A model generated the notes under the pieces. That model was given only the letters and a program-made list of their open reading frames with translations, was not told the DNA's origin and searched no databases. Of a stretch of DNA of 64,000 bases, positions 19,301-41,344 are shown piece by piece. The DNA is from Rhizocola hellebori. Lineage in GTDB: Bacteria > Actinomycetota > Actinomycetes > Mycobacteriales > Micromonosporaceae. The stretch's first letter is position 1, and every line of letters begins with the position of its first letter. The stretch lies in NCBI RefSeq assembly GCF_016862955.1, contig NZ_BONY01000001.1:186001-250000 (forward strand). The letters run 5' to 3'. Position numbers and translations under genes: made by a program.

Positions 19301-20636
19301 TGCACCGCAGGAGGTGGCGCGAACCGTCGTGCTGGATGAGATTCGGTATCTGTTCAAGACCGGCGACTACCTGGCCAGCAAGATGCTTGGTGAGACGACG
19401 CTGAAAGCGTGGGAAGGAAAGACCGACGCAGCTCTCGGCCTAGACCAGGAGTTGGTCTTGATCGCCTCCCGGCTCCTCGCCGACGCACTAAGACTGCTGG
19501 GTGAGGCTGCCAAGGCCCACCAGCTTAACACCGCTACCCTTGAGCGGCTGCGCAACAGCACGCACTTTGGTGAGGATCATGAACATACGCTTAACACGGC
19601 CAACGGGCTCGGAGTGGGCTTGCGGATGGAAGGTCGGTTCGTCGAATCCCTTGCGGTGGAACGAGATAATGTCGAGCGCCACGTGCGGGTCTGGGGTGAC
19701 AAAGATCAGGCGACCCGGCGCGCGCAAAACAACCTTGCGGTCAGCCTGCGGCACCTGGGCAGGTTCGAAGAGGCGTTCGATATCGATCAACGACTCGTTT
19801 CATTGTGGCGTGAAAGCGCTGGCGACATCGATACCCGGACCTTGTTCTGCGTAGCAAACTTCGCTCGCGATCAAATTGGCCTTGGTAAATACCGCGATGC
19901 ATTGGAAATGCAGCGCAAGAACCTCGAGCCGTATCGCGACCAGCTTGGCCTGCACCACGGCGAGGTTTTGATGGCGGCACGGACCATCACCATCACGCTC
20001 CGGAAATCGGGATACTACGCAGATGCACGGGATGCCGGCCGGGACAATTATCACGACCATCACGCGAAGTTTGGAAAGAACCACGAGCATACGCTGTCGG
20101 CAAGAATGAGTTATGCCAACGCCTTGCGCTGCTGTAGCGAATTTTCGGCGGCGCGTGCCGAGTTGCGCGAATGTGTAGACACGTATCGATCAGTGTTTGG
20201 CGACCAGCATCCGTTCACTCTCGCAGCAAACGTGAATCTGGCGATCGCATTGCGATCGGCCCGTGACTACGACGAGGCGGCGGTGATCAGCGAGCACTCG
20301 CTCAGGCACTTGACTGACCTTCTCGGGCCGAAACACCCTTATACGATTGCCGCAGCCAACGGCAGGGCGAACGGGCTTGCCCTCTCCGGAGACGTTATGG
20401 CTGCTGGGCAACTGTCGGCGCAGACCTTTGACCACGCACGGGAAATCTACGGCGAGAAGCACCCCGTGACGCTGGCCTGTGCGGTCAACGCCGCGCGCGA
20501 CGACGCTGCGGGGGGTGCACTGCTCGACAATTCGTTGTCAAGAATGCGGGAGACATTGGGTGCCGATCATCCCGAGGTGCTTGATGCGGCCCGAGGCGAG
20601 CGAATGGAGTGTGATATCGAACCCCCGCCAACGTAG
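16374..20636 (+). CDS. APH/kinase-like - NB-ARC - TPR protein (FxsT-like STAND regulator)
   Basis: The 1420-residue protein has three parts. Residues about 30-330 look like an aminoglycoside-phosphotransferase/protein-kinase fold, with HGDLHLEN (H235, D237, N242) and a later VDLS (D261) as the catalytic-loop and metal-binding equivalents. A linker with a short helical block (LLIFVDQLAHL, about residue 490) resembles adaptor regions of actinobacterial conflict proteins. From about residue 610 comes NB-ARC: GLGGVGKT (K644), LLVYDN (D715), HVIITSRN and GDLPLAL. A C-terminal array of about 42-residue TPRs follows (EDHEHTLNTANGLG, GDQHPFTLAANVNLA, GPKHPYTIAAANGRA). The NB-ARC-TPR part matches the TPR partner of FxSxx-COOH systems. 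It is convergent with the HExxH gene, 15 bases apart. GC is clearly lower than in the flanks. Confidence 0.85.
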   Translation: MSADSTTDGLARVLGSRAASALRDWALAKSRSVRLASPEWTSRGYTGAVLAAVNVSTLGDPDVKVIVKVCPPGPYAREPTAHRQAKASSSATFYAAHLVEQIYSAHPINGGGMLMFQEIATATLDGVPLSQVPDDHLARSCGIVVHGLLAEWNSARIRTSDTTVGAFLQGELRGALNSGGSVHALAKHVRLLEPEARWILDAGRDGHPLPNPAMMASDPALGAHLKFDVIRGPAHGDLHLENVLIPQEYGQFEPQKFRLVDLSTFEDDAPVTRDPVTLMLSVIAPSVSELRADEQEALLDFVLEPWPPTPPRLSTLMAHILEVIYRTGNEAIKAMRLGDWRSQYLLSVQATATLFTSFESVGEAGRWWFLRLAARAGAAFLRRHHHYHPGTPVSLRRPLSLPSSRSSWSQSQTLSVTGDLSRQSSLLPTELATLLRLLAESSHELLTAAYHATSHPDAQSAGWENASSLVELLQRADASSAPAPPLLIFVDQLAHLSTGSHDLALHRWLSAVGRNHGYTDETLRQLCSTSLRASSQHPTTKPLWVGDTNADDPNSGGSTSVTKLYPNSQSLPGGSMISETTQTPSVEGVKNPPQRRQIVGSLPAKNPAFTGRDQLLRIMATTLNEASAVSVIPQALHGLGGVGKTQLATEFVHRNLHHYEIVWWMSAEDPSLVRASLVELARKLQLPAGEEVRQTIALVLDALATSTSRWLLVYDNVDSPDDISGLVPSAGGHVIITSRNNAAWATGSGAVEVDVFERSESVKLLQLHGKSISDHDAARLAEKLGDLPLALEQAAIWHASTGMPVSEYLELFDKNLRELLSEGRPSNYPDTIYGILKVAVGRLRTDAPAAAELLELFAFLGAEPISVDLLRAGRGSGLSEALAAALDRPIELNRVIRELRRFGLARVDTKEGQRVQVHRLVQRVLREELVEDRLNQARSNAQRLLSLANPGYPDVPKNWPVYKEIFPHIHAAELLDAPQEVARTVVLDEIRYLFKTGDYLASKMLGETTLKAWEGKTDAALGLDQELVLIASRLLADALRLLGEAAKAHQLNTATLERLRNSTHFGEDHEHTLNTANGLGVGLRMEGRFVESLAVERDNVERHVRVWGDKDQATRRAQNNLAVSLRHLGRFEEAFDIDQRLVSLWRESAGDIDTRTLFCVANFARDQIGLGKYRDALEMQRKNLEPYRDQLGLHHGEVLMAARTITITLRKSGYYADARDAGRDNYHDHHAKFGKNHEHTLSARMSYANALRCCSEFSAARAELRECVDTYRSVFGDQHPFTLAANVNLAIALRSARDYDEAAVISEHSLRHLTDLLGPKHPYTIAAANGRANGLALSGDVMAAGQLSAQTFDHAREIYGEKHPVTLACAVNAARDDAAGGALLDNSLSRMRETLGADHPEVLDAARGERMECDIEPPPT
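18088..18101 (+). promoter_or_regulatory. Internal Shine-Dalgarno and in-frame ATG inside the STAND gene
   Basis: CAGGAGG at 18088-18094 is followed four bases later by an in-frame ATG at 18099. Starting there would give an 845-residue NB-ARC-TPR protein without the kinase-like part, beginning with an acidic/Gln-Thr-rich leader 68 residues before the Walker A lysine, as in stand-alone FxsT proteins. This suggests a second product, or a past fusion of two genes in which the downstream gene kept its own ribosome binding site. Confidence 0.55.
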
Positions 20637-20651
20637 GCGAATCTTTCTGTT

Positions 20652-21962
20652 TCATTGTTGGCGATTGCGCTGTCGCCATAGTTTGTGCTGAGCGCGGAGT
20701 ACATCGTTTGCATGAGCAGCGACGCTGGCCGGGATCGGCTGGGCCATCAGCAGATCGCATCTATGCCGCATGGTTTTGGCAAACTGCACGCCCTCGGGAG
20801 TCAGTGAGTCAGCGGACACAAGTATGTCCAAGGCCGTGTCCACCTGTACTCGCCGAAGGGCAAGCTCGTTCTCTGCGGTCTGGCGAATGCGAGTATCTTC
20901 ACTGAGATCCAGCCAGGTCTCGGCGACGGCCAGAAATGCGTATACGCCGTGAAGTAGTCCACCTATTGGCCGGGCATCGGGTCGCCAGGGAGCGAAGTAG
21001 CGGGCCTCACTACGGCGATCGAATAGCGGCATGAGGTTTAATAGCCCGTTGAGCGTGGAGTGGGCCTGCTCGTGGACTAGCGCAATTGCGAAGCGAGCAG
21101 GATCGGTTGGCAGAGTCATGGCTAGCGCACCCATCGCGTCCTGCGATGTCATGCTTATCTCGGCGAGCCCGGGCTGAGGTGCTAGGGGCACCAGCACCTG
21201 CATGATCTGCGATACCTGCGCCGCCCGTTGCGGCGAATGCCTACAAAGTAATTGCCAGGCCGACAAGAATAATTCGTTCCAGCGACCATACTGATCCGAT
21301 GGCACTCGTCCGGTCGTACGTGCCCCATAGCAGTCGCGGAGCGGGTCTAGGTCATCGAAAGCGAGATCTAGTGCGAGTTGGCCATGCATTGCTGTCAAAC
21401 GCCGCATCGCGATCCAGCTAGTAGATGCCGATTCCTGGCCATGCTGAACGGTAAGAGCGTTGCCGTCGCAGTGAATTGTCAAACGCCCGTCCTTCACCAC
21501 CAGCCTGATGTTCAAACTGCTCCCGTCGCACGGTATGGCCACGCCCAGTGTCGGGAGGACGAGACATCCGCTGTCGGTCACGGTCCGGGTTTCAGCATCG
21601 ACACCAGCCCGCAGCGCGGCGACCGCCGCAAATGCGCCGAGGCGGGCCACGCTTTGATCGAGCGTGCGACGATTTGTCTGTGGGGCCTTAAGCGCCTCGA
21701 TGCAGCGCGCGATCCAGTGTCCGGACCAGGCCTGGTTGGACAGGCATGCGATCTGCTGCGGCGAGCGAAGTTGCGCCTCGGACAACACGTCAACCGCGCG
21801 GGAGAGCGGCTCGCTGGTCGGCATCGACCGAAGGATGTGTGCGGTAAGTAAGTGGTCGACGCTGGCTTGGGCCGAGCGGAGCGTCTTCGCCGTCAGGGGG
21901 TCCAGCTTCCCGGCCGCCAACGAGGTAATTGACGCAGCCGATAAAATGTATCTATTTATCAA
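20652..21962 (-). CDS. HExxH-type peptide-modifying enzyme (FxsB-associated / aKG-HExxH family)
   Basis: The 436-residue protein contains ALVHEQAHSTLNGLL (H297, E298, H301), followed by the family block RYFAPWRPDARPIGGLLHGVYAFLAVAETW. This combination identifies the 'HExxH motif' peptide-modification proteins found alone or fused to the radical SAM enzyme FxsB in FxSxx-COOH clusters. Related enzymes have been described as 2-oxoglutarate-dependent peptide beta-hydroxylases, so HExxH here may hold iron rather than a protease zinc. There is no signal peptide. The start is TTG at 21962 with GGAGG just upstream and only 11 bases after the stop of the small peptide gene, so the two are co-translated. 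The likely substrate is that peptide. Confidence 0.82.
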   Translation of the reverse strand: MINRYILSAASITSLAAGKLDPLTAKTLRSAQASVDHLLTAHILRSMPTSEPLSRAVDVLSEAQLRSPQQIACLSNQAWSGHWIARCIEALKAPQTNRRTLDQSVARLGAFAAVAALRAGVDAETRTVTDSGCLVLPTLGVAIPCDGSSLNIRLVVKDGRLTIHCDGNALTVQHGQESASTSWIAMRRLTAMHGQLALDLAFDDLDPLRDCYGARTTGRVPSDQYGRWNELFLSAWQLLCRHSPQRAAQVSQIMQVLVPLAPQPGLAEISMTSQDAMGALAMTLPTDPARFAIALVHEQAHSTLNGLLNLMPLFDRRSEARYFAPWRPDARPIGGLLHGVYAFLAVAETWLDLSEDTRIRQTAENELALRRVQVDTALDILVSADSLTPEGVQFAKTMRHRCDLLMAQPIPASVAAHANDVLRAQHKLWRQRNRQQ

Positions 21963-22408: not shown

Positions 22409-23326
22409 TCAGTGGGCGTTCACCATACGTGACAGCTCCTGCATCGACGCCTGAAAGTCGACGCGATCCCGGTCGCGGTACCGGTCAAAGAAGATGTTGG
22501 GCACGCGGGTGCACGTGACACGAGTCTGGAAGATCACATTCTGGACTTCCCGCGCCAGCCGGGACAGCTCTGGCTCGCTATCGGGCCGACCGAGCGCCGC
22601 AACGATTTGCTCGCGCACCACGATCAGCGCTTGGGAGCGGGTCTTTGCCGTCAGCTGCTGGGCCCGGTAGGTGTCAAGCCCCATCATTAGTGCTCCCAAC
22701 GATGGGACGTAAAACTGGAGCACGATGTCGGCGACGGTAATTTCGAGTAGCGAGCCCAGCATCACGCCGGCGGCGGCCCATGTGGCGACCACGATAAGGA
22801 TGGCAAAGGAGTATCGCTGACGGATGCGGGCGCCCCAGCCGAGGTTCTGTTGCTGGCAAGCCAGGACATCATACGGGCCAGGCAGTTCTGGTATCTCGTA
22901 GTAGCCCCTCAGGAGGTCCTCGGAGCCGCGATACAACCGTGCGAGCTTGCTGATCTCGTCTGGGTTGACCCGCGGCCCGGCCACGACAAGATTCCACGGT
23001 AGGCGGAATAGCGCGACATCGAACATCTCCTGAAGAAGCGCGGCTCGCTGGACCTCACGTTGCGCCCACGCCGAAAGCCCTACTGCGTGCAATAGCGCCC
23101 ACAGCCCGCCGATCACTGTGACCGCAGTAGCAATGCTGGTTACCGTCGTGGTGACGAGACCGAGCACCGCGATAAGGGCCGAGGTGCTCAGGCGCAAGCC
23201 CTCGAGTCGCTGGGCTCGCAAATGCGACGCAGTGATGGCGCGTAGCAACAAAAGCGACTCTGGGCTGTTCTGCTGCTCACGCAGATCGGATTCTGCCTTG
23301 GATGCACGGCCCTCTTCCGTAGGCAT
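22409..23326 (-). CDS. S-4TM family putative pore-forming effector
   Basis: The 305-residue protein has two helix pairs (about residues 47-90 and 172-218) and long cytoplasmic segments. The middle contains the S-4TM signature: an LQEMFDVALFRLPWN segment, then AGPRVNPDEI, a tryptophan/tyrosine-rich stretch ending YYEIPELPGPYDVLACQQQNLGW, and RIRQRYS before the third helix. S-4TM proteins are predicted to form membrane pores that kill or arrest the cell in nucleotide-activated and STAND-linked conflict systems. No cyclic-nucleotide synthase is nearby, so activation would have to come from the STAND/peptide genes or elsewhere. The start at 23326 lacks a good Shine-Dalgarno sequence. Confidence 0.78.
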   Translation of the reverse strand: MPTEEGRASKAESDLREQQNSPESLLLLRAITASHLRAQRLEGLRLSTSALIAVLGLVTTTVTSIATAVTVIGGLWALLHAVGLSAWAQREVQRAALLQEMFDVALFRLPWNLVVAGPRVNPDEISKLARLYRGSEDLLRGYYEIPELPGPYDVLACQQQNLGWGARIRQRYSFAILIVVATWAAAGVMLGSLLEITVADIVLQFYVPSLGALMMGLDTYRAQQLTAKTRSQALIVVREQIVAALGRPDSEPELSRLAREVQNVIFQTRVTCTRVPNIFFDRYRDRDRVDFQASMQELSRMVNAH

Positions 23327-23980: not shown

Positions 23981-24021
23981 GAGACGAAGCCTACGTCGGC
24001 TCGTCAGGTAGGTTTCGCGTC

Positions 24022-24552
24022 ATGCTCATCGGTGAAGATGCCAAGCCAGCCACCCTGCACCCCGACGCGCCCCCACCGGGCACGCAGCTGCCGTCGCACT
24101 ATGACCGGTGCTACGGCTGCGGGCCGCACCACCAGGCGGGGTTGCGGATGCAGATGACGGTCGGCGAAGGCACCAGCGTCCACGGGCGTTTCGAGGTGAC
24201 CGACGAGCATCAGGGCGCCCCCGGCCTGGCCCACGGCGGGCTGCTGGCCTGTGCGATGGATGAGGCGCTGGGCACCCTCGGCTGGCTGCTGGGCATCCCC
24301 GCGGTCACCGCCCACCTCGAATCCGACTTCCGCATCCCGGTGCCGGTCGGCACCATCCTGCACCTGCACGCGCACTGTCTGGGGGTCGCGGGCCGCAAGA
24401 TCTACCTTTCTGCCACCGCCCGGCTCAACGATCCGGAGGGGCCGGTCGCGGTGCAGGCGCAGGCGATGTTCCTCGCGGTCAATCTGACCCACTTCGCCGA
24501 GCACGGCCGTCCCTCGGGCATGGATCGCGAACCTACCCGCATCAACCCATAA
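24022..24552 (+). CDS. PaaI-type hotdog-fold thioesterase
   Basis: The 176-residue protein has a hotdog domain with the thioesterase active-site region GLAHGGLLACAMDEALGTLG (the HGG plus downstream Asp-Glu) and strands HLESDFRIPVPVGT and RKIYLSATARL. An N-terminal CYGCGPHHQAGL with two cysteines is common in this actinobacterial subgroup. It would hydrolyse acyl-CoA thioesters in the cytoplasm. The acyl chain is unknown, and no linked acyl-CoA pathway gene is present. Confidence 0.85.
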   Translation: MLIGEDAKPATLHPDAPPPGTQLPSHYDRCYGCGPHHQAGLRMQMTVGEGTSVHGRFEVTDEHQGAPGLAHGGLLACAMDEALGTLGWLLGIPAVTAHLESDFRIPVPVGTILHLHAHCLGVAGRKIYLSATARLNDPEGPVAVQAQAMFLAVNLTHFAEHGRPSGMDREPTRINP

Positions 24553-24566
24553 CGGCGACGCCGCGC

Positions 24567-25016
24567 TCAGACGAGCGTCCAGGTGGTGCAGACCGGCACC
24601 CCATCGCCGGGATGGCAGGTGATGCGCAGGTGGCCTCGGGCGAGCCCGGGCGCGGCAAAGCGGCCCAGGGCATCGGCCTCAAGCCAGGTGGGACCGGCCG
24701 GATGGTCGATCCTGATCCGGGCGCTCTGCGGCGGGACCAGCTGGCCGAGCAGGCTGACCTGCCGCCCCGTGGTGGTGAGCTCGACTTCGATGGTGAGCTC
24801 GCCGGCCGTGAAGGTCAGCAGCTCGGGCTGGTGCTCACCGCGTACCCCGGCCAAAGTGGCGGAACGGGATTCGTCGGCCAGCTGGGCGAGGGCGGCATCG
24901 GGATCGCGCCAGGACAGCGCTTCCTTGGCCGCCAGCACCACATCGGCGGGCACGGCATCCTGGCGGGATGTCAAGCCCTGCAAGGCTTCCCAGAGGGCGT
25001 CATCGTTGGTGGGCAT
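24567..25016 (-). CDS. Conserved small partner of the sigma/S8/CHAT module, unknown function
   Basis: The 149-residue protein has an acidic helical N-terminus (residues 1-65, including LAAKEALSWRDPDAALAQLADES). The beta-rich C-terminus has ELLTFTAGELTIEVELTT, SLLGQLVPPQSARIRIDH and LEADALGRFAAPGL. No anti-sigma zinc motif (HxxxCxxC) or membrane helix is visible. Its ATG shares one base with the TGA of the sigma gene, so it is translated with it. From position it may modulate the sigma factor, but that is inference. The gene ends convergently 14 bases from the thioesterase gene. Confidence 0.65.
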   Translation of the reverse strand: MPTNDDALWEALQGLTSRQDAVPADVVLAAKEALSWRDPDAALAQLADESRSATLAGVRGEHQPELLTFTAGELTIEVELTTTGRQVSLLGQLVPPQSARIRIDHPAGPTWLEADALGRFAAPGLARGHLRITCHPGDGVPVCTTWTLV

Positions 25017-25588
25017 CACACGGTGACCTTCTGCCGGAGCTGGTCGAGACAGCGGGATCGAGTAGGGCCGATGCTGCCGATGGGAATCTCCAGCGCGGCA
25101 CTGATCTCGTGATAGCTGGGCGGCGGGTCCAGCACCATCAGGCGCAGCAGCCGCTGGCAGTTCATCGGAAGCTGGCCCACCGCCGCCCACAGGAACTTGT
25201 CGCGCTCGCGCTGCAGCATGTCGTCGTCCAGCTCGGGCTGGGAGGCGTCGTGCCGGTCCAGGCTGAGCAGATCGCTGGCGGGCAGGTCGTGACCCGCCCG
25301 GCGCAGCAATGCCAGCGCTTCGCGCCGCGCGGTGGTGGCCAGCCAGGCGCCGAGGCGTTCCGGGTCCCGGATCCGCCCGAGCTGTTCCACCAGGCGAAGC
25401 CAGGTCGCCTGGTGGATGTCGGCCGCGTCGGCGGAACCGAGCCGGAAGCTGCGCGCCACGGTCCACACCAGCCCGGAGTATTTGTCCACGATGGAACTCC
25501 AGGCTCGCTGGTCTCCGGTGGCCGCCGCGTCGAGCAGCGACTTGATGTCTGCCTCGGGGAGGTTCACATCGAGTGAGCCTACCGTCAC
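25016..25588 (-). CDS. ECF-like RNA polymerase sigma factor
   Basis: The 190-residue protein has sigma region 2 (residues 20-85: LLDAAATGDQRAWSSIVDKYSGLVWTVARSFRLGSADAADIHQATWLRLVEQL) and region 4 (about 125-185: LPMNCQRLLRLMVLDPPPSYHEISAALEIPIGSIGPTRSRCLDQLR). It should direct RNA polymerase to its own promoter set. The GTG at 25588 overlaps the TGA of the subtilase gene (GTGA). It forms an operon with the S8 protease upstream and the small partner downstream. The divergent CHAT gene and the injection-system operon are plausible targets. Confidence 0.88.
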   Translation of the reverse strand: MTVGSLDVNLPEADIKSLLDAAATGDQRAWSSIVDKYSGLVWTVARSFRLGSADAADIHQATWLRLVEQLGRIRDPERLGAWLATTARREALALLRRAGHDLPASDLLSLDRHDASQPELDDDMLQRERDKFLWAAVGQLPMNCQRLLRLMVLDPPPSYHEISAALEIPIGSIGPTRSRCLDQLRQKVTV

Positions 25589-26760
25589 GGCAGTCCCGGG
25601 TATTGACCGACTATGTTGGCTCGAGCCTTGGCCATCACCGCTGCTAGAGCAGCCTGCACCGTGGCGGCCTGGCTCAGTTCCTCGGCCAGGGCAGCCACCA
25701 CGTGCGGGGTGGCGAAGGAGGTTCCGCTCCATAATGCCCATCCCGTCGGGAATTGCTCGTGGCGCACAAAGGTGCTCGTGATGTCGGCGCCGGGCGCCGC
25801 CAGGCTGACCCACTCGCCGCTGTTGCTCCATTGACAAATGCCGGTGCCATCGTGCGCCGCCACCGCGACGACCTGCCGCGCCCAGGGCACATCGGCGCCG
25901 GCGAACGCCGCCGGCCAGAACGGGCGGCCGCGCTGGCCGTCGTTGCCCGCCGCGGCGACCACGAGCCGTTCCCGGCCGGCCAGCACCTGGCCCAGCGCCT
26001 GGGAAAGGGCCAGCGGCGGCTGGTCGTCGAGGGTGAAGCCACCCAGCGAAAGATTGATCAGTTTCTCGTCACCGAGGCGGCCCAGCGCCACGATGAGGTC
26101 GGCCTCGGTGCAGGCGCCGAAGGTGTCCAGCACCCGGATGGCGCGGATGCCCGCCTTCTGGGTCTGTGCGGCCAGCACCCCGATGATGAAGTTGGCGTGG
26201 CCGACGTCGCCGTCGAGAACACCGTCGTTGTCCACATCGGTGTCGCTTTCATAGTCGCCGTCGGCGGCGGTGTAAGCGCGGGCCGGCAGGGGGCTGTTGC
26301 GCCACACCCCGGTGTCGAGCACCGCCACCGACACCTGGCCGGCACTGCGCGCGGGCAGGGTGCGCGGACGCAGCGCCGGAACCGGCGGGCCGAACGGGCC
26401 ACCATGTTCGAAGGGCGCCGACAGGAAAACGTGGTTGGGGCTGGCGGCCACCCGATCGTCGCCGTCGTCCTGCGCGAGCTGGCGCAGCCTGCGTGCCGCG
26501 ACCGGGACATCGAGGCCACTGCCGCGATAGCGGATCAGGCCCGGAGCGAGCTGGCTTTCCTCGATCGAGCCGGCGGCGCCGAGCTGACCCAGCACCCGTT
26601 CGGCCGATTGCCGGTGATCTGCCAGCACGAGCAACTCGCCCTGGGCGAACCAGACCGGCAGCCCGCCCGGTCGCGTCTCCTGGCCCAGCCAGCTCAGCCC
26701 GCGCATCCGGCTTGCCCTGCGCTGCTGCCATTGCCGCAAGCGGTCCTCCGACAGTGCCAT
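25585..26760 (-). CDS. Cytoplasmic S8-family serine protease (subtilase)
   Basis: The 391-residue protein has the catalytic triad D149 (VAVLDTGV), H188 (DVGHANF) and S348 (SGTSFATPHV), with the oxyanion Asn in AAAGNDG. There is no signal peptide. Residues 1-140 form a non-secretory N-terminal domain in place of a typical prodomain. It should therefore act inside the cell, unusual for a subtilase. The start at 26760 is chosen for GGAGG nine bases upstream; a TTG three codons earlier is less likely. It leads the sigma operon and is divergent from the CHAT protease gene. Such S8/CHAT pairs in conflict systems suggest one protease activating or cutting the partner's products. Confidence 0.88.
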   Translation of the reverse strand: MALSEDRLRQWQQRRASRMRGLSWLGQETRPGGLPVWFAQGELLVLADHRQSAERVLGQLGAAGSIEESQLAPGLIRYRGSGLDVPVAARRLRQLAQDDGDDRVAASPNHVFLSAPFEHGGPFGPPVPALRPRTLPARSAGQVSVAVLDTGVWRNSPLPARAYTAADGDYESDTDVDNDGVLDGDVGHANFIIGVLAAQTQKAGIRAIRVLDTFGACTEADLIVALGRLGDEKLINLSLGGFTLDDQPPLALSQALGQVLAGRERLVVAAAGNDGQRGRPFWPAAFAGADVPWARQVVAVAAHDGTGICQWSNSGEWVSLAAPGADITSTFVRHEQFPTGWALWSGTSFATPHVVAALAEELSQAATVQAALAAVMAKARANIVGQYPGLP

Positions 26761-26824
26761 CTCGCCCAACCTCCGTCATCTCGTGTCATCGCGAACAACC
26801 AAACAGAGAGCACCCTGAACGACG

Positions 26825-26856
26825 CTGATACATACACCTATGTCGGAAGACCGACA
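26825..26856. promoter_or_regulatory. Palindrome in the S8/CHAT divergent promoter
   Basis: CTGATAC (26825-26831) is followed by the perfect dyad TGTCGG-aaga-CCGACA (26841-26856), which ends 26 bases before the CHAT start. A CTGATACG plus GTCGG...CCGACA arrangement recurs after the CHAT gene at 29483-29542. This may be an operator or the recognition element of the neighbouring sigma factor. Confidence 0.45.
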
Positions 26857-26882
26857 CCGCGAGCCGTGCGACGATCACGCAT

Positions 26883-29486
26883 GTGGATTCATCGACTGCG
26901 GGCCGGGCCCTGGCCATGGTCATGGCCGATCCGCGCGGGGCGCAGGCCCTCGCCGTGGATCTGCTCGCGACAGCCAAGCGCGAGGCGGATCCGGCTGGCG
27001 AAGTGACCGCGCTGCGGGCGCTCGGATTGGCCGCCCGGGAGCTACAGGACGCCGCCACGGCTGCGCACCAGCTGCGGCTTTCGGTGGCCGTGGCCCGGCG
27101 GGCAGGTCTGGCCGAGCTGGCCGCCGAATCCCGGATGAGCCTGGCGCTGGTCCTGGACGATCTTGGCCGCCCACGCTCGGCCGTACGGGAGATCGATCTG
27201 GCCCTGACCGCGCTGCGCGGCCTCCCGCTGGCGCGGGCGCGCATGCAACAGGGCATCCTGTTGCGCCGGCTGGGCCGGGAAGCCGACGCGCTGCGCGCCT
27301 ACAGCACCGCGCTGGCCAGCTTCCGCCGGCACGGGGACCTGCTGTGGCAGGCCAGGGTGCTCACCAACCGCGGGGTGCTGCAGGCCTACCGCGGTGGGCT
27401 GAGCCAGGCACGCGCAGACCTTCTTCGCGCGCAGGAGCTGTATAGGGAGCTCGGTCTGACCTCGGCGGTGGCCCAGGTGGAGCACAACCTCGGTTTCGTC
27501 TCGGCCCAGGGCGGCGACCTGGTGTCCGCCTTGGACTGGTACGACCGCGCCGACGAGCATTTTCGGCGAAGCGGCTCACGTCCGGCGGTGGCGCTGATCG
27601 ACCGGGCCGAGCTGCTGCTGGCGGCCCGGCTGCTGGGCGAGGCGCGGCAGGCCGCCCAGGACGCGGTGCAGGCCGCCACCGACGCGCAACTGGGATCCCT
27701 TGTCCCGCAAGCCAAGCTGCTGCTCGCCCAGAGCGCCCTGGCCGCGGGCGATCAGGCGGCCGCGCATGAGGCGGCCGGTCAGGCTCGGCGCGCCTTTCAG
27801 CGCCAGCAGCGCGAACGCTGGGCTGTGCATGCGCGCTATCTGGAATTGCGTTCCGCCGCCAGCCAGGATCGCGCCTCCCTGCGCAAGGTCGCCGCCGCGC
27901 TGGAAAATTCCGGCTGGGCCGAACAGGCGCTGGAGGCACGGCTGTTTCTCGCCTCCTGCGGCGACCAGGCTGCCCTGGCCGGGCTGGCGGCGCCACCGGC
28001 CAAGGCTGGTCTGGCCCGGTTGCGCATCCGCGCCTGGCACGGCCGGGCGCTCAGCCTGGTGCATCTCGGCGACCCGGCCGGGGCCAAACGAGCCCTCGAC
28101 GCCGGGCTTCGCCTGCTCGATCAGTATCGGGCCGCCCTGGGCGCCACCGAGCTGCGGGTGCTCAGCTCCGGCGAGGGCGCGGACCTTGCGGCGCTTGGCA
28201 TCCGGCTGGCCCTGGCCGATCACCGGCCCCGCCAGGTGCTGGCCTGGGCGGAGCGGTGGCGAGCGGCCACGTTGCGGCTGCGGCCGGCCCGCTCCCCCGA
28301 CGACCCCGAGCTGACCCGCGATCTGGCCCAGCTGCGCCGGGTGGGCGCCGAGCTGACCGGCCAGGACGGCGACCCGGTACGCCGCCACCGCCTGCTGCGC
28401 CGGCAACGGGCGCTGGAGGAGGCGATCCGCAGACGCACCTGGCGGACCGGCGCCGCCATGTCCACAATGGACAAGGCCATCCCGCTGGAGCGGGTCATCG
28501 CCTCGCTCGGCGACCGAGCGCTAGTCGAGCTCGTGGAGGAGCAGGGCCACCTCATAGCACTGGTCGCCGTGGCCGGTCGGGTCCATCTGCGGCAGCTGGC
28601 CACGGCCGCGGCCACCACCGCCGAGGTCGCCGCGCTTCGGTTCGCCTTGCGCCGCTTGGTTTCCAGGTACGGCTCGGCCGCCTCGCAGGCCGCCGCCGAC
28701 GCGGCCGCCAGGCACGGCCTTCGCCTTCTCGACGAGTGGCTGCTCGCACCGGTCCGGCCGCTGATCGGCGATCGCGAGCTCGTCATCGTCCCCACCGGGG
28801 CGCTGCAGGCGCTGCCGTGGTCGGCCCTGCCGAGCTGCGCCGGCCGCCCGATCACCGTCGCCCCCTCCGCCACGGTGTGGTGGCAGGCCGCCACCTCTGA
28901 TCGCCACCACAAACCGGTGCCGCACACCGGAAAACGGCGCACGGTACTGGTGGCGGCGCAGGAACCGCCGTGCGCCGTCCCGGAGGTACAAGCGTTGGCC
29001 GCGCTGCTGACCCACGACGCCTCGCTGGTCGGCACTCAGGCCACTGTCCAGGCCACGCTCACCGCGATGGACGGCGCACACCGCGCGCACATCGCCGCGC
29101 ACGGCGCCTTCCGCGCGGACAACCCGCTGTTTTCCTACCTGAGCCTGGCGGATGGCCCGATGACCGTGCACCACTTCACTTCTCTGCGCCGGATGCCAGA
29201 GCTGGTGGTGCTATCCGCGTGCGACACCGGCCTGTCGACGGTCTATCCCGGCGACGAGCTGATGGGCCTGAGCGCCACCCTGCTCGGCGCGGGAACCCGG
29301 ACCCTCGTCGCGAGCACCGGCCCGGTCGAAGACACCGCGACCCAAACCCTCATGGTGCAGCTGCATCGTCACCTCGACGCCGGAACCGCGCCGTCGCATT
29401 CGCTGGCCTTGGCGCGCAGTGCAGCTGACCCGGACAGCTGGGCCACCGCACATTCATTCACCTGCTTCGGCGCGGGTACCGCCTGA
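26883..29486 (+). CDS. TPR-CHAT domain protease
   Basis: In the 867-residue protein, residues 1-430 form helical repeat pairs (TPR-like: ALRAYSTALASFRRHGDLLWQARVLTNRG and the like). From about residue 540 to the end is a CHAT (caspase HetF-associated with TPR) domain. The catalytic dyad is visible as H740 in HIAAHGAF and C780 in LSACDTG, with the usual GDELMGLSATLLGAGTRTLVASTGPV after it. CHAT proteases are caspase relatives that cleave partner proteins upon sensing. The start is GTG at 26883; an overlapping ATG at 26881 is out of frame. It stands between the sigma/S8 operon and the injection-system operon and may gate one or the other. Confidence 0.9.
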   Translation: MDSSTAGRALAMVMADPRGAQALAVDLLATAKREADPAGEVTALRALGLAARELQDAATAAHQLRLSVAVARRAGLAELAAESRMSLALVLDDLGRPRSAVREIDLALTALRGLPLARARMQQGILLRRLGREADALRAYSTALASFRRHGDLLWQARVLTNRGVLQAYRGGLSQARADLLRAQELYRELGLTSAVAQVEHNLGFVSAQGGDLVSALDWYDRADEHFRRSGSRPAVALIDRAELLLAARLLGEARQAAQDAVQAATDAQLGSLVPQAKLLLAQSALAAGDQAAAHEAAGQARRAFQRQQRERWAVHARYLELRSAASQDRASLRKVAAALENSGWAEQALEARLFLASCGDQAALAGLAAPPAKAGLARLRIRAWHGRALSLVHLGDPAGAKRALDAGLRLLDQYRAALGATELRVLSSGEGADLAALGIRLALADHRPRQVLAWAERWRAATLRLRPARSPDDPELTRDLAQLRRVGAELTGQDGDPVRRHRLLRRQRALEEAIRRRTWRTGAAMSTMDKAIPLERVIASLGDRALVELVEEQGHLIALVAVAGRVHLRQLATAAATTAEVAALRFALRRLVSRYGSAASQAAADAAARHGLRLLDEWLLAPVRPLIGDRELVIVPTGALQALPWSALPSCAGRPITVAPSATVWWQAATSDRHHKPVPHTGKRRTVLVAAQEPPCAVPEVQALAALLTHDASLVGTQATVQATLTAMDGAHRAHIAAHGAFRADNPLFSYLSLADGPMTVHHFTSLRRMPELVVLSACDTGLSTVYPGDELMGLSATLLGAGTRTLVASTGPVEDTATQTLMVQLHRHLDAGTAPSHSLALARSAADPDSWATAHSFTCFGAGTA

Positions 29487-29542
29487 TACGTCGGATATCG
29501 GCGACGGCCCAGTCGCCCAGCCGACATCAACCGCCGTATCAG
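29483..29542. promoter_or_regulatory. Nested inverted repeats between CHAT gene and injection-system operon
   Basis: Three nested arms are present: CTGATACG/CGTATCAG (29483-29490, 29535-29542), GTCGG/CCGAC (29490-29494, 29521-29525) and GGCGAC/GTCGCC (29500-29505, 29512-29517). It begins over the CHAT stop codon and may act as its terminator, but it also shares CTGATAC and GTCGG...CCGACA with the site upstream of the CHAT gene. The operon start at 29615 follows. A TGTC-N5-GACA dyad at 29562-29574 is also present. Confidence 0.45.
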
Positions 29543-29614
29543 CCGCCTGCTCCCAGACCTCTGTCTGTCTGACAAGCGTGCCATCGGGGCACGCCGGACA
29601 GCTGGAGGCGCACA

Positions 29615-30283
29615 ATGCCACTGCCCGATGAGCACACCGGCCCGTTGGTAAGCGCCAACGCTGCTCTGCTCCACCAGCTCGCCGCGGCGGGGGTCGCGGT
29701 CGAGATGTCACCGCCGCCTGAATCGCAGGATCGCTTGCGGCTCATGGTCTGGCCGGTGGCGCTGCTGCCGGAGGACGTTCCCGCGCAAGCAGGAAACCCG
29801 CTTCGGCTGCGGGTGCGCTATGTCGTGGCGGTGGGCGGGCCGGCCGAGGCGGCACTGGCGCTCTGGGATCGTTTGCTGGAAACAGAGCAGCCTTATCTGG
29901 TACCCGAAAAAGTCTCCTCGTCGCTATGGCAGGCGATCGGGGTGGGGCAGCGCCTCGGGTTGCTCTTCGAGGTTCCGGTTCAGTTCGCCAGGCCGGTCAC
30001 CACGGCGCCCCGGGTGACCTCGCTGCCGAGCCTGGTTTCCATTTCCCTGCGCCGGGTTCACGGCCGCGTCGTCACCTCCGGTGGCGTGCCGCTGGCCGGG
30101 ATGCGGGTGGCCGCCGCCGATGGCACCTCGGTCACCCATTCCGACACCAACGGCCACTTCGTGCTCAGCGGCGTCCAAGCCGATCAGCCGTTGCGGCTCA
30201 ACGTCACGGGCCGCGGTCTGCGGCTCGCCGCCGAGGTTGCGGCCGTCTCGGCCGAACCCGTCGTCATCACCTGCGAAATCTAG
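29615..30283 (+). CDS. Injection-system protein with carboxypeptidase-regulatory-like domain (Pvc16-position)
   Basis: The 222-residue protein has two parts. Residues 1-140 contain LRVRYVVAVGGPAEAALALWDRLLE and resemble in layout the DUF4255/Pvc16 proteins that precede the sheath gene in contractile injection systems. Residues 145-222 form a small beta-sandwich of the carboxypeptidase regulatory-like type (VHGRVVTSGGVPLAGMRV, THSDTNGHFVLSGV). Pvc16-type proteins are thought to cap or link the sheath end. It is the first gene of the operon; the sheath gene follows after 11 bases. Confidence 0.6.
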   Translation: MPLPDEHTGPLVSANAALLHQLAAAGVAVEMSPPPESQDRLRLMVWPVALLPEDVPAQAGNPLRLRVRYVVAVGGPAEAALALWDRLLETEQPYLVPEKVSSSLWQAIGVGQRLGLLFEVPVQFARPVTTAPRVTSLPSLVSISLRRVHGRVVTSGGVPLAGMRVAAADGTSVTHSDTNGHFVLSGVQADQPLRLNVTGRGLRLAAEVAAVSAEPVVITCEI

Positions 30284-30294
30284 GAGGTTAGTCG

Positions 30295-31506
30295 ATGCCC
30301 ATGTACTCCTCTCCCGGCATTTATGTCGAGGAGGTCTCCGGTGGCAGCAGGCCGATCGAGTCGGTCGGCACCAGCACCGCGGGATTCGTTGGCACAGCAC
30401 CGGATCAGAACGCGCGCCGCGGCGAAGCCGTGGCCGTGAACAGCTGGTCGGAGTTCCTGCGGGTCTTCGTCGGGGACAGCCAGCAGGGCACCCCGCTGTC
30501 CCGCGCGATCTATGGCTTCTTCGACAATGGCGGCGGGCGCTGCTATGTCGTCAACATCGCGCCAGGTGAACCGTTGGCGGGCAAGGGCCGTCAGCGCAGC
30601 GGGCTGCGCCTGCTGGAGGCGATCGATGAGATCGCCGTGGTGGCCGCGCCCGGCTACACCGACGCACTGTCCTATGAGGACCTTCTGGCGCACTGCGAGC
30701 TGATGGGCGACCGGATGGCCATCCTGGACGGCCCCGAGCAGGTCGGCGATGTGGAGCGGCTCACCCGAGCCGGCGCCAGCGGTCTGCCCAAGCCCAAGCG
30801 GGCCGAGGGCGACCCCGCCCCGCAGGCCGCCGAGGAAAACGCCGGCCTGCGGCCGCGGCAGTCCGACTACGGCACGTTCTATGTGCCATGGCTCGTCGTA
30901 CGCGACGCGCTGAGCGGTGACGTGGTGGGAACCCCGCCCAGCGGCCACGTCGCCGGGGTGTGGGCACGCAGCGACACCCTGCGCGGGGTGCACAAGGCCC
31001 CCGCCAACGAGCCGGTACGCGGCGCGGTCGACCTGACCTACCGGGTGACCAAGGTGGAGCAGGACATCCTCAACCCGGCCGGCGTCAACTGCATCCGTCA
31101 CTTCCCCGCCGAAGGCATCCGCATCTGGGGAGCGCGGACACTGGCCGCCTCGGGCAGCGAATGGCGCTACCTCAACGTGCGCCGTCTTTTCAACATGCTC
31201 AAGGAGTCCATCGGCGACGGCACCCGCTGGATCGTCTTCGAGCCCAACGACAACCTGCTCTGGCGCTCGATCCGGCGAGACATTTCCGCCTTCCTGACAA
31301 GGGTTTGGCGCGATGGCGCGCTGCAGGGCCGCACCCCGCAGGAAGCCTTCTTCGTCAAGTGCGACGAGGAAACCAACCCGGCCGAGGTTCGCGACGCCGG
31401 CGAAGTGGTGACGCTCATCGGCGTCGCTCCGGTCAAACCGGCCGAATTTGTCATCTTCAAGATCAGTCAGTCCGCCGGTACCGGCGGCGAGCAGGCAGGA
31501 GCCTGA
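30295..31506 (+). CDS. Contractile tail sheath protein
   Basis: The 403-residue protein opens with the standard sheath N-terminus (SSPGIYVEEVSGGSRPIESVGTSTAGFVG). It ends with the conserved C-terminal domain (VNCIRHFPAEGIRIWGARTL, ASGSEWRYLNVRRLFNML, RWIVFEPND). Sheath subunits stack around the inner tube and contract to drive it through a target envelope. AGGAGG at 30283-30288 sits six bases before the ATG, the strongest ribosome binding site of the cluster, fitting the high copy number needed. It is short for a sheath, as in actinobacterial injection systems. Confidence 0.95.
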   Translation: MPMYSSPGIYVEEVSGGSRPIESVGTSTAGFVGTAPDQNARRGEAVAVNSWSEFLRVFVGDSQQGTPLSRAIYGFFDNGGGRCYVVNIAPGEPLAGKGRQRSGLRLLEAIDEIAVVAAPGYTDALSYEDLLAHCELMGDRMAILDGPEQVGDVERLTRAGASGLPKPKRAEGDPAPQAAEENAGLRPRQSDYGTFYVPWLVVRDALSGDVVGTPPSGHVAGVWARSDTLRGVHKAPANEPVRGAVDLTYRVTKVEQDILNPAGVNCIRHFPAEGIRIWGARTLAASGSEWRYLNVRRLFNMLKESIGDGTRWIVFEPNDNLLWRSIRRDISAFLTRVWRDGALQGRTPQEAFFVKCDEETNPAEVRDAGEVVTLIGVAPVKPAEFVIFKISQSAGTGGEQAGA

Positions 31507-31507
31507 C

Positions 31508-31996
31508 ATGCCTGAAGTCACTGCACGTCCCGCCGCCCAGCCGGGCAATCTGGTGGACCCCTACCGCGCCTACAACTTCAAGCTGCTCATCAACAACGTC
31601 ACCGAGGGCCACTTCACGGAGGTGGGCGGGCTTGGCGTCAAGGTGGAGACGATCGCCTACCGCGAGGCGGGCAACAACTCGGTGGTGCGGGCGATCCCCG
31701 GACGGGTCACCTACCAGCCGGTCACCCTGCGCTACGGGCTGACCTCCTCGGTCGAGCTGTGGGAATGGCTGATGACCGCGGTCGAGGGCCGGGTCAGCCG
31801 CCGCAACGTCTCGATCGTCATGCTGGACAGCTCCGGCTCGGCCGAGTCCATGCGCTGGAACCTGGTCAACGCGTGGCCCCAGGAATGGTACGGCTCCCCG
31901 CTCAACGCGATGAGCCGCGACCTCGCCGTCGAAACCCTAGTGCTGGCGCACGACGGACTCCAGCGGGAGATCAGCAATGTGGGCATGGCTGCTTAG
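31508..31996 (+). CDS. Inner tube protein (gp19/Hcp-like)
   Basis: The 162-residue protein has the tail-tube pattern DPYRAYNFKLLINNVTEGHFTEVGGLGVKVETIAYREAGN, followed by RVTYQPVTLRYGLT and WNLVNAWPQEWYGSPLNA. Hexameric rings of such proteins form the inner tube. The ATG is one base after the sheath stop. Only one tube gene is found; many related systems carry two or three paralogues, of which the LysM-containing hub protein downstream is a distant one. Confidence 0.93.
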   Translation: MPEVTARPAAQPGNLVDPYRAYNFKLLINNVTEGHFTEVGGLGVKVETIAYREAGNNSVVRAIPGRVTYQPVTLRYGLTSSVELWEWLMTAVEGRVSRRNVSIVMLDSSGSAESMRWNLVNAWPQEWYGSPLNAMSRDLAVETLVLAHDGLQREISNVGMAA

Positions 31997-33221
31997 CCTG
32001 GCCGGATTCGCTCGCCGGTTCATGGGCCGCGGCATCGCGAACCGGCCGAGCCCAGCGGTACGGCTGGGGGGCGTCGCCCCCCAGCCCGACCCGCCGGACT
32101 GGCCATCGGTGTTCCCGCGGCCGGCCACCGAATCCGACGACATCTATCCGGCAGCGCTGACCGATCCGCGCTGGTCCGACCTGTCTCGCCCGCGGGCCCT
32201 GCCGGCATCACCGCGGGCGGCGAACACCAACGGCGGCAGCCAATGGATCACGCCGCGCCGCTTAGGCTCGACGCCGATCCGCGATGGTGCCGAACGGATG
32301 CCGCCACAAGCGGCACCCGTTGCCGCGCCGACCCTTCCGCACGCGAGCCCCGGTGCCAACCAGACCTCGCCCGGCCCGACAGCCGGTGCCGACCACATCT
32401 CGCCACAAGTGACCCCCGGTGCCGACCCAACCTCAGCCCATTCAACTCCCGGTGCCGACCACGCCTCTCCACAAACGACTCCCGGTGCCGACGACGCCTC
32501 GCCCCACGTGGAGCGCCGTGCCCACCAGACCTCACCGCACGTGATGCCCGAGACCTCGCCACAAGCGGGGCACGGCGACCAGAACTCGCTCCACGCGGGG
32601 CCTCGTGGCCAGCAGGCCGAATGGCAAGCAACGCCCGGAGCCGATCAGATCACGCCACAAGCATTGCCCGGTCTCCACCAGACCTCGCCACAAGCGGGGT
32701 CTGGCACCCACCAAAGCCCGCTCCACGCGGTGCCCGAGACCTCGCCACCAGCGGAACTCGGCACCGACCGGGCCTGGCCTGAGCCGCAGGCGTCATTTGG
32801 CGACAGCGGCTGGCGGCTGCGGGATGGCTGGACGACAAGGGTTTCGCCCCGGCGAGACGAACCGGCCGCGGAAGGCGGCGGGCGAGCTGCGCCGGCTGAA
32901 GCGGCACATAGCCAAGCCGACGACCGCCCACGCCACGAGCTGGCGGCGATGCCGGGCGTGGTGGGCATCTGGCCATCGCTGCCCTGGCACGACAGCCCGG
33001 GCTCCGCAGCGGCGGGCGGTGAACGGCGAACGCAGCTGACCGCCGAGCGCCTGCCGCCGGGCGGATGGACCAAGACGTCCCCAGGCAACCTCACGGACTC
33101 AGCGCAATGGCCACAGCTGCTGGACGACAGCGAGCTCTGGATCGCCCCGGCCGCCGCGGCAGACGAGCGAAGGGTCCGCCGGCTTGATCGTGAACAGGAG
33201 GGTAGACCATGGAGCGCATAG
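31977..33221 (+). CDS. Pro/Gln/His-rich repeat protein in injection-system operon
   Basis: The 414-residue protein is unlike others in the cluster. The N-terminus (MWAWLLSLAGFARRFMGRG) is a short amphipathic or hydrophobic helix. Residues about 118-260 are a disordered array of 11-residue units of the form [T/S]PGADxxSPxx. Residues 270-414 are tryptophan-rich with two short motifs (WRLRDGWTTRVSP, VVGIWPSLPWHDSP). It starts 20 bases inside the tube gene with GGGAG upstream, and ends 13 bases inside the hub gene. A scaffold, spacer, length-setting or cargo-loading role is possible, but no homologous function is recognised. Confidence 0.8.
   Translation: MWAWLLSLAGFARRFMGRGIANRPSPAVRLGGVAPQPDPPDWPSVFPRPATESDDIYPAALTDPRWSDLSRPRALPASPRAANTNGGSQWITPRRLGSTPIRDGAERMPPQAAPVAAPTLPHASPGANQTSPGPTAGADHISPQVTPGADPTSAHSTPGADHASPQTTPGADDASPHVERRAHQTSPHVMPETSPQAGHGDQNSLHAGPRGQQAEWQATPGADQITPQALPGLHQTSPQAGSGTHQSPLHAVPETSPPAELGTDRAWPEPQASFGDSGWRLRDGWTTRVSPRRDEPAAEGGGRAAPAEAAHSQADDRPRHELAAMPGVVGIWPSLPWHDSPGSAAAGGERRTQLTAERLPPGGWTKTSPGNLTDSAQWPQLLDDSELWIAPAAAADERRVRRLDREQEGRPWSA
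32340..32760 (+). repeat. 33-base coding repeat array
   Basis: Tandem 33-base units encode [T/S]PGADxxSPxx. The clearest are three successive units from 32412 to about 32510, starting at Thr146 of the protein. Degenerate units extend on both sides, some of 30 or 36 bases. The unit boundary keeps the reading frame. A second, less regular block starts near 32630. Confidence 0.75.
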
Positions 33222-33847
33222 CTTTTCTGGTCGATGAGACCGGCGAGCGGATCGACTGTCTGATCAATCCGGAGACCTTGGTCATGCGCCGGCTGGCCGG
33301 TGTGCGCCCGGCGGCGCTGCCAGGGGCGGTGATGGGCGCCGACGGCGACGACGTGTTGCTCTACACCGGCGGCGGCCGCACCGAGCTCGTGCTCGATCTG
33401 CTCTTCGATGTCGAGCTGATGGAGCCGGCGAACCGGCCCGACGATGTGCGCAAGCTGACCAGCCGGTTGTGGCGGCTGGCCGACAGCGGCGAGGGCAGGC
33501 CGCCCCAGGTGCGCCTGGTGTGGGGCAAGACCTGGAACCTGCCCGGAGTCGTGGTCAGTGTCGCCGAACGGCTCGACGCCATCGACGCCGCCGGCAATCC
33601 CCGCCGGTCTTGGCTGCGCCTGAAACTGGTGCGCACCAACGAGGAGGTCAAGGCGCGCCCGGCGAAGACCAATCAGAGCGCCGTGCAGGCGGTCGGCAAC
33701 GGCTCCGGCTCCGATGGCGTGCGTTTCGATCTGCTGGCAGCCGATGCCCTCGGCGATCCGTCCCGGTGGCGGGAATTGGCCGAGCACAACGGAATCGCCG
33801 ACCCGCTGCGGGTCCCGGCGGGGGCTGTGCTGGCGGTGCCGTCATGA
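33209..33847 (+). CDS. Baseplate hub/tube-initiator protein with LysM-like C-terminus (Pvc7-like)
   Basis: The 212-residue protein has an N-terminal CIS tube-like domain (residues 1-150: AFLVDETGERIDCLINPETLVMRR, ELVLDLLFDVELM, VRLVWGKTWNLPGVVVSVAERLDAID) and a C-terminal LysM-like segment (DPSRWRELAEHNGIADPLRVPAGAVLAVP). Such proteins join the VgrG spike to the tube. The order tube - hub - VgrG - tip matches known contractile injection systems. The ATG at 33209 has AGGAGGGTAGACC upstream. Its stop overlaps the VgrG start (ATGA). Confidence 0.88.
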   Translation: MERIAFLVDETGERIDCLINPETLVMRRLAGVRPAALPGAVMGADGDDVLLYTGGGRTELVLDLLFDVELMEPANRPDDVRKLTSRLWRLADSGEGRPPQVRLVWGKTWNLPGVVVSVAERLDAIDAAGNPRRSWLRLKLVRTNEEVKARPAKTNQSAVQAVGNGSGSDGVRFDLLAADALGDPSRWRELAEHNGIADPLRVPAGAVLAVPS

Positions 33848-35304: not shown

Positions 35305-35639
35305 AATGGATCGTCACCACCGCCGACATCCGCTGCGACCACGACGGCAAGGTGGCCAACAACCCGTCGCAGCACTGGGTGGAGATCTCCGGGCATCCGG
35401 TGCTCGTCGACGACGACCCGCAGGGGCGGGCGATCGCGCGCTGTCCCAACATCGGGGCCACCATGAAGCCCTGCGTGAAGACGCTGCGCGTCGCCGTCGG
35501 CTACAGCGATTGGATCCGCATCGACGGCCACGCCATCGTCCTGGACACCCTCGACGGCTTGACCGACGGCACCGTCCCCGGCACGGTGCACTACCGCGTG
35601 CGTACCCCCGGACAGTCCTTTGTGGAGGCTGAATCATGA
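35301..35639 (+). CDS. PAAR-like spike tip protein (Pvc10-position)
   Basis: The 112-residue protein has RCPNIGATMKPCVKTLRVAVGYSDWIRIDGHAIVLDTLDGLTDGTV, in line with the short PAAR-like tip proteins that follow VgrG in injection systems. Possible metal-binding residues include Cys and His (CDHDG, HPV, RCPN, KPC). It would sharpen the spike. It overlaps the VgrG gene by four bases and the gp25 gene by four. Confidence 0.75.
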   Translation: MKWIVTTADIRCDHDGKVANNPSQHWVEISGHPVLVDDDPQGRAIARCPNIGATMKPCVKTLRVAVGYSDWIRIDGHAIVLDTLDGLTDGTVPGTVHYRVRTPGQSFVEAES

Positions 35640-40080: not shown

Positions 40081-40081
40081 C

Positions 40082-40525: not shown

Positions 40526-40526
40526 G

Positions 40527-41276: not shown

Positions 41277-41285
41277 AACAGTGGT

Positions 41286-41319
41286 GGCGCCAGCGGCGTG
41301 GGGGTTCGCCGCTGGCGCC
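41286..41319. terminator. Bidirectional terminator after the injection-system operon
   Basis: GGCGCCAGCGGCG (41286-41298) and its exact complement CGCCGCTGGCGCC (41307-41319) form a 13-base stem with an eight-base loop. It sits between the convergent operon end and the hsp20 stop, nine bases past the former and 25 from the latter. Confidence 0.8.
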
Positions 41320-41344
41320 GGGACCGGTGCAACGTTTTGCCGGC

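Follow-up and report, generated by a model that had tools for sequence, protein, structure and literature searches.

Here we describe a four-gene cassette and the contractile injection system (CIS) operon that lies beside it in the genome of Rhizocola hellebori (Micromonosporaceae). Both are contained in a 64,000-nucleotide stretch of DNA (contig NZ_BONY01000001.1, positions 186,001 to 250,000), hereafter the window, in whose own numbering all coordinates are given. Three of the cassette genes, encoding a small partner protein, an extracytoplasmic function (ECF) sigma factor and an S8 subtilase, form a single overlapping operon on the minus strand (24567-26760). The fourth gene (26883-29486, plus strand), encoding a tetratricopeptide-repeat (TPR) protein with a caspase-like CHAT domain, is divergent from this operon, and the CIS operon (29615-41276, plus strand) starts 128 bp past it. 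The gene order, strands and coordinates are as an earlier reading of the DNA letters (hereafter the sequence-only reading) had given them. The overlaps at the S8/sigma junction (GTGA) and the sigma/partner junction (TGATG) are such that the three minus-strand genes are probably translationally coupled. The genes are as follows:

24567..25016, minus strand: partner protein, candidate anti-sigma factor or protease substrate (predicted fold, no family match)
25016..25588, minus strand: ECF sigma factor, whose GTG start overlaps the S8 stop and whose stop overlaps the partner ATG (Pfam, NCBIfam)
25585..26760, minus strand: S8 subtilase, probable zymogen (Pfam, predicted fold, hydropathy)
26883..29486, plus strand: TPR-CHAT caspase-like protease with dyad H740/C780, not behind the shared promoter element described below (Pfam, alignment)
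29615 onwards, plus strand: CIS operon, beginning with a protein with a carboxypeptidase-regulatory-like C-terminus (29615), the sheath (30295), the tube (31448) and a repeat-rich protein (31977)
33209 onwards, plus strand: CIS operon, continued with CIS_tube (33209), the spike/hub (to 35304), a gene at 35199, baseplate J (35620) and tail P2_I (38561)
39019 onwards, plus strand: end of the CIS operon, with a PASTA protein (39019) and two proteins with hydrophobic segments (39926 and 40518), ending at 41276

In Pfam, the protein encoded at 26883-29486 matched CHAT (1e-36) and TPR, the open reading frame (ORF) at 25585-26769 matched Peptidase_S8 (6e-20), and the sigma gene matched Sigma70_r2 (1e-11), with region 2 alone listed; the four cassette proteins gave nothing else. 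The sigma2-sigma4 architecture is covered by sigma70-ECF TIGR02937, which spans sigma residues 25-183. Conservation was read from alignments whose rows were picked by hand, short or divergent ORFs being excluded; they hold the window sequence together with 22 of 36 CHAT ORFs, 18 of 29 S8 ORFs, 20 of 37 sigma ORFs and 28 of 29 partner ORFs (L043 dropped). The sequence-only reading had credited the CHAT protein with an intact dyad, the subtilase with a full triad and no signal peptide, and the partner with 149 residues, and each of these details holds. H740 and C780 are kept in all 23 aligned sequences, as expected of a TPR-CHAT protease with the His-Cys dyad of the Craspase type. Over its CHAT part only, the CHAT profile matches PDB CHAT proteins that include 8rot as well as 8d9f and 7x8a, which we take to be Craspase chains; its strongest PDB matches are TPR proteins.

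The Asp-His-Ser triad of the subtilase (D152/H191/S351) and its oxyanion Asn (N276) are present in 19 of 19 aligned sequences. Its start is better set at ATG 26760, which is preceded by GGAGG. Hydropathy shows no hydrophobic N-terminus, and the 19-residue Kyte-Doolittle mean peaks (1.19, at residue 211) inside the catalytic domain. In the predicted fold, a prodomain-like beta-alpha-beta-beta-alpha-beta unit (residues 38-116, P0002 numbering) precedes the catalytic domain, and the best PDB match of the model is unautoprocessed pro-subtilisin E (3whi, E 2.2e-16, 367 columns). The N-terminal prodomain of a zymogen is thus present in the predicted model and, together with the missing signal peptide, suggests that S8 is probably a cytoplasmic zymogen.

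The partner, counted from ATG 25016, is predicted to have three N-terminal helices (5-55), a low-confidence linker and a C-terminal all-beta domain (mean pLDDT, the predicted local distance difference test score, 86.6), and most of its nearly invariant positions sit in the beta domain. Neither Pfam nor NCBIfam matched it at E 0.01, and Foldseek gave 0 matches at E<=0.001. No family or function could be assigned through Pfam, NCBIfam, PADLOC, PDB profile or Foldseek searches; a biofilm surface protein (E 0.004), the top hit of the PDB profile search, spans just part of the beta domain and was rejected.

Aligning the S8-CHAT and CHAT-CIS gaps from ten loci brought out a promoter-like element that stands ahead of both operons and is accompanied by an upstream palindrome:

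26803..26831, minus strand: promoter-like element before S8-sigma-partner, GTATCA (26826-26831), N17, CTCTGT (26803-26808)
29536..29564, plus strand: the same element before the CIS operon, GTATCA (29536-29541), N17, CTCTGT (29559-29564)
26841..26856, minus strand: palindrome TGTCGG-TCTT-CCGACA, 9 bp upstream of GTATCA, a possible extra operator found in CIS-linked loci only
29512..29526, plus strand: GTCGCCCAGCCGACA, the CIS-side counterpart of the S8-side palindrome, at equal distance to its promoter

GTATCA-N15..21-CTCTGT occurs twice in the 64-kb window, each time with N17, where 0.00 sites are expected (100 shuffles); one lies ahead of each operon, and each is directed into its operon. 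Among the CIS-linked loci, the CIS-side element is present in 11 of 11 (L081 with CTCTTT) and the S8-side element in 10 of 11. Across whole genomes, the exact N17 form was found in all ten genomes with cassette and CIS together (26 sites, of which 23 belong to this locus) and in none of five CIS genomes without an adjacent cassette, and a backwards-pattern control gave 0 in 15 genomes. When CTG was appended to the element, all seven mismatch-free matches fell in cassette-plus-CIS genomes.

The motif was also derived independently from other cassettes. Hexamers were counted upstream of sigma or S8 in 34 of them, the motif not being used as input. GTATCA came out as the top hexamer (12 loci versus 0.43 expected) and GTATCAG as the top heptamer (8 versus 0.19 expected), and many of these GTATCA sites have CTCC or CTCT 16-17 bp on. 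In the 37 loci of relatives, the bipartite pattern occurs 38 times forward and twice reversed, with 0 sites assigned to CHAT, as against two forward and two reversed in 35 sheath loci without a cassette. In a second set, of 20 loci from across the phylum, GTATCA was again the top hexamer (8 of 17 versus 0.69 expected), and bipartite sites numbered 21 forward versus 0 reversed. An autoregulatory promoter ahead of the sigma factor's own operon is, by sequence, present in part of the loci. The common element before both operons and the enrichment of GTATCA at other cassettes together argue that the sigma factor probably drives its own operon and has taken over that of the CIS. The sequence-only reading had proposed a proteolytic switch that turns the CIS operon on, and had named a sigma factor without effect on CIS expression as a reason to drop the idea; the sequence evidence speaks against such a lack of effect, because the two operons share an element that tracks the presence of the cassette and whose core is seen phylum-wide.

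Partner matches were found in 33 of 61 genomes (the own genome and 60 relatives). The fetched partner-match loci minus the three closest make up 37 neighbourhoods (L040-L076), six of them shortened by contig ends and each entered through a partner match. In these, tblastn found sigma in 34, CHAT in 33, S8 in 27 and the partner in 26; 27 neighbourhoods hold sigma, S8 and CHAT jointly, and 18 hold all four proteins. The co-occurrence of sigma, S8 and CHAT around a partner match is above chance. CIS genes lay beside the cassette in 0 of these 37 neighbourhoods, all outside the closest clade. A partner profile search across the phylum found matches in 22 of 198 genomes, and CIS genes were seen in 0 of the 20 phylum cassette loci fetched. 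The own genome has a second cassette without a CIS (L052) and a second CIS without a cassette (L077). When genome contigs were searched with the CHAT protein alone, no relative was found; with the CHAT alignment, 11 loci were.

Seen from the injection system, a related sheath (E 1e-20) is present in 193 of 300 family genomes drawn. In all 10 genomes of the draw whose sheath reaches 86% identity or more (11 loci, 4 genera), the cassette is adjacent and in the same place; cassette-plus-CIS genomes include Catellatospora species and Allorhizocola rhizosphaerae, both Micromonosporaceae. An adjacent cassette was found in 0 of 33 other sheath loci fetched, namely the 75-77% sister L088, 24 loci at about 62-67% identity and 8 more distant ones; among the matches listed, at least 72 show about 62-67% identity over nearly full length, of which those 24 were fetched. 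In Catellatospora tritici (G159) the cassette and CIS occur on two contigs with near-identical matches (L085 and L086), either a true duplication or an assembly artefact. The CIS-linked cassettes form one clade, with support of 99/98 in the sigma tree and 100/100 in the CHAT tree (trees excluded L086, a near copy of L085, sigma matches below 140 residues and CHAT matches below 400 residues). In the compared loci the conserved block runs from the partner through 41276, and no other searched window ORF is common to the fetched flanks, which reach about 6-10 kb on the partner side and as far as about 9 kb past the end of the CIS operon. With one clade, and a conserved block without common flanks, the association of cassette and CIS is most readily taken to have arisen once and to have been retained ever since.

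The sigma/partner/S8/CHAT set is a general actinobacterial cassette, not a CIS-specific guard. The sequence-only reading had seen in it a dedicated guard of the injection system and had held that occurrence mostly without injection-system genes would count against this. Such is the distribution found (0 of 37 and 0 of 20 loci), and what stands of the claim is the one clade in which the adjacency is held by 10 of 10 genomes.

We consider it rather probable that the cassette is self-contained, that its ECF sigma factor gained the CIS operon in one Micromonosporaceae lineage, and that the partner, CHAT and S8 serve to release the sigma factor. The sigma factor would read GTATCA-N16/17-CTCY promoters, that is, those of its own S8-sigma-partner operon and, in this lineage, of the CIS operon, whereas CHAT would be made separately, outside the sigma regulon, as a sensor could be. 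The helical N-terminus of the partner would keep the sigma factor inactive, in the manner of an anti-sigma factor, until an unspecified stress acting on the TPR region switched CHAT on. CHAT would then cut the partner, either directly or via activation of the S8 zymogen, which would provide a second, amplified protease. Freed in this way, the sigma factor would boost its own operon and turn on the injection system. A proteolytic switch is plausible because of the parts of the cassette and the characterised analogues considered below, and the overlapping genes, the zymogen-like S8 and the three-helix-plus-beta partner are compatible with it. The proteolytic release is put forward as a hypothesis, as are the processing of CIS proteins and any link to cell death, both of which go back to the sequence-only reading.

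Several observations weigh against this interpretation. The partner shows no match to a known anti-sigma domain in Pfam, NCBIfam, PDB profile or Foldseek searches. The S8-side site is missing from one CIS-linked locus (L039, Allorhizocola), and no bipartite site could be assigned to the second cassette of the own genome. Elsewhere, just 15 of the 38 bipartite sites, in 13 of 37 loci, could be linked to a start of sigma, S8 or the partner at 500 bp or less, as could sites in 9 of the 20 loci of the second set (within 700 bp); the remaining sites and loci may have diverged, may start elsewhere or may reflect chance. With two mismatches allowed, the element plus CTG matches 19 of 20 genomes with or without a cassette; the loose form therefore does not discriminate, and the two-mismatch search was dropped as a group marker, the element being drowned in background. 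Finally, a different DNA-binding protein could read the element.

A broader proposal, which we advance tentatively and with more doubt than confidence, is that of a caspase-to-injection pathway, in which TPR-CHAT senses damage or infection and acts through the S8 zymogen and the ECF sigma factor to have an intracellular phage-tail machine built. The cassette would then be a reusable plug-in whose output is changed by promoter capture: the CIS here and, elsewhere, LuxR-type regulators, secreted DUF6345 proteins and extra subtilases. Genes found behind promoter sites do include further subtilases, LuxR-type regulators (with a GerE domain in L056; those of L063 and L072 begin like it, by eye), secreted DUF6345 proteins (L055, L070) and a nucleotide-cyclase-domain ORF (L050). 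In three of 15 genomes (G016, G148 and G159, Catellatospora genus) a 376-residue protein adjoining the partner lies behind the element, which reads CTCTTT in the G016 copy; this protein may be one more of the switch's outputs.

Exact sites also precede two ORFs elsewhere. On contig 19 of the own genome (L178 5923-6543; L143), a 206-residue ORF with a deaminase-like HGE...CxxC pattern, seen by eye, lies shortly behind an exact GTATCA-N17-CTCTGTCTG site. It had no Pfam, NCBIfam or convincing PDB match, and it was not retained as a regulon member, its sole homologue in 20 genomes (G009) having no site in the fetched locus; we treat it as a lead. In G009, far from the CIS locus, a 319-residue ORF (L140 512-1471) with an exact promoter site upstream carries a trypsin-like GDSGGP motif by eye, and had no Pfam or convincing PDB match.

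Release of the sigma factor presupposes that the partner is an inhibitor. It might instead be a co-activator, scaffold or sensor, with proteolysis shutting the system off, which would fit both its lack of likeness to known anti-sigma domains and the concentration of its nearly invariant positions in the beta domain. However, overlapping genes and a small helical N-terminus, both seen here, are usual in sigma/anti-sigma pairs, and we regard this alternative as somewhat unlikely. We give a low probability to a purely post-translational role, in which CHAT and S8 process CIS parts, the partner or cargo and the sigma factor merely sets their level. Two intact proteases do stand beside a CIS, and S8 sits in the sigma operon under a promoter type common with the CIS; against this, 27 of 37 loci that lack CIS genes still combine sigma, S8 and CHAT, and CIS parts are therefore not general substrates.

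That the element belongs to another regulator, an activator or a repressor to which both operons answer, finds its best argument in the palindrome. Its type in CIS-linked loci is TGTCG-N6-CGACA, at a fixed, operator-like distance upstream of both promoters, and of the 31 bipartite sites in these loci, 21 have GACA 9 bp ahead of the hexamer, versus 0 of 38 and 0 of 21 (59 in total) at other cassette loci. A second regulator may, on this pattern, bind the upstream palindrome of CIS-linked loci. The bipartite element with its 16-17 bp spacing, by contrast, precedes sigma operons phylum-wide without the palindrome, and the cassette holds no further DNA-binding gene, so that we find a different reader of the element quite improbable. 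Past CTCTGT, short inverted repeats are visible by eye in the 5' leaders (about 26770-26800 and 29565-29600) of many CIS-linked loci. Least likely, we think, is that a stand-alone cassette merely landed beside the CIS operon with no functional tie: the cassette does occur mostly without a CIS, the link is confined to a single clade and other sheath loci in the same genomes have no cassette (L077, L119, L120), but the common promoter-like element is not found in sheath loci without a cassette, and all 10 genomes, spanning 4 genera, hold the adjacency, no other common flank having been found.

The triggers of actinobacterial injection systems are poorly known. Capture of the CIS operon by the cassette's sigma factor would tie a protease switch to production of a phage-tail-like injection machine in a way open to experiment. 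A short predicted promoter, a predicted sigma factor and two predicted proteases make the trigger question testable. The promoter also offers a handle on the outputs of the CHAT/S8/sigma cassette, which is present in several actinobacterial families.

The CIS operon itself contains the sheath, tube, spike/hub, baseplate J and tail P2_I of the extracellular CIS (eCIS) type; an AAA+ ATPase had no match among the 12 CIS operon proteins scanned. Between tube and CIS_tube, the ORF at 31977-33221 contains about ten 33-nt repeats (11-residue PGAD-TSPQ-like units) and is a possible length-setting or linker protein. The PASTA protein and the 199- and 252-residue ORFs (39019-41276) have strongly hydrophobic segments and are candidates for a membrane part like Streptomyces CisA. 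Rfam gave nothing at gathering scores across 24000-42000. In 22000-44000, the 20 largest of at least 60 direct-repeat families look like the 33-nt coding repeat of the 31977 ORF and chance matches, and no array of clustered regularly interspaced short palindromic repeats (CRISPR) was accepted. Further upstream, an NB-ARC/TPR protein with a VMAP-M0 match and a below-cut-off TCAD9 match adjoins an FxsBH-like aKG-HExxH peptide hydroxylase (16257-21962); Actinoplanes philippinensis (L193) has weak homologues of the two close to a cassette as well. At 22409-23326 lies a SMODS-associated 4TM effector (S_4TM, E 1e-76; PADLOC 4TM effector). No synthase of a cyclic-oligonucleotide-based antiphage signalling system (CBASS) was recognised among the few neighbouring proteins scanned.

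Several characterised systems resemble the cassette. In the part of the account available for type III-E Craspase (PMC10028731), Csx29, a TPR-CHAT protease, cuts the sigma inhibitor Csx30, the sigma factor is CASP-sigma, and autoregulation is proposed. The cassette likewise combines a TPR-CHAT protease, an ECF sigma factor and a third protein. It differs in its 149-residue partner, whose profile matched no PDB chain named Csx30, and in the additional S8 zymogen, and an RNA trigger is not expected. Among 29 distinct window proteins scanned with Pfam (part of the window ORFs) there was no Cas7-11/gRAMP and no other CRISPR component. CalpL, according to the accessible portion of PMC11417357, cuts the anti-sigma factor CalpT and is thought thereby to free the ECF sigma factor CalpS. 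The likeness lies in the proposed protease release of an ECF sigma factor from its anti-sigma factor; unlike CalpL, a CRISPR Lon protease, the protein here belongs to another protease family, with CHAT and TPR but no SAVED domain in Pfam. The searches did not connect the partner with either Csx30 or CalpT. The cassette would work like the Craspase and Calp systems without being a member of them, no CRISPR component among the proteins scanned and no such partner likeness having been seen. In type III-B CRISPR, SAVED-CHAT and a prokaryotic caspase form a two-protease cascade acting on sigma regulators. The CHAT part of our profile matches 8rot, titled just 'CHAT domain-containing protein', whereas the second protease here is an S8 zymogen and TPR takes the place of SAVED. 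EACC2/caspase systems, as far as the text available describes them, couple a caspase-like peptidase to an ECF sigma factor and a TPR protein (eLife 2021, e70394; PMC8195603); the four proteins of the present cassette, unlike these, gave CHAT, TPR, Peptidase_S8 and Sigma70_r2 alone in Pfam.

For the injection system, the relevant precedent is in Streptomyces, where SigE is reported to regulate a sheath gene and a CIS regulator gene (SCO4253, SCO4263); no protease cassette is mentioned in the accessible part of that account (PMC10286715). SigE is a global envelope-stress sigma factor, whereas here the sigma factor is encoded at the CIS locus. Streptomyces eCIS promoters are developmentally timed, according to the available part of PMC10020575. 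Two Streptomyces CIS papers, in the portions seen on sigma factors, proteases, caspases and CHAT, describe no CHAT/S8/sigma cassette, and no description of the cassette was found in the literature searched, mostly outside subscription papers. ECF control of a CIS is thus not new in kind; what is new, as far as we have searched, is a sigma factor encoded at the injection-system locus together with caspase-like and subtilase partners.

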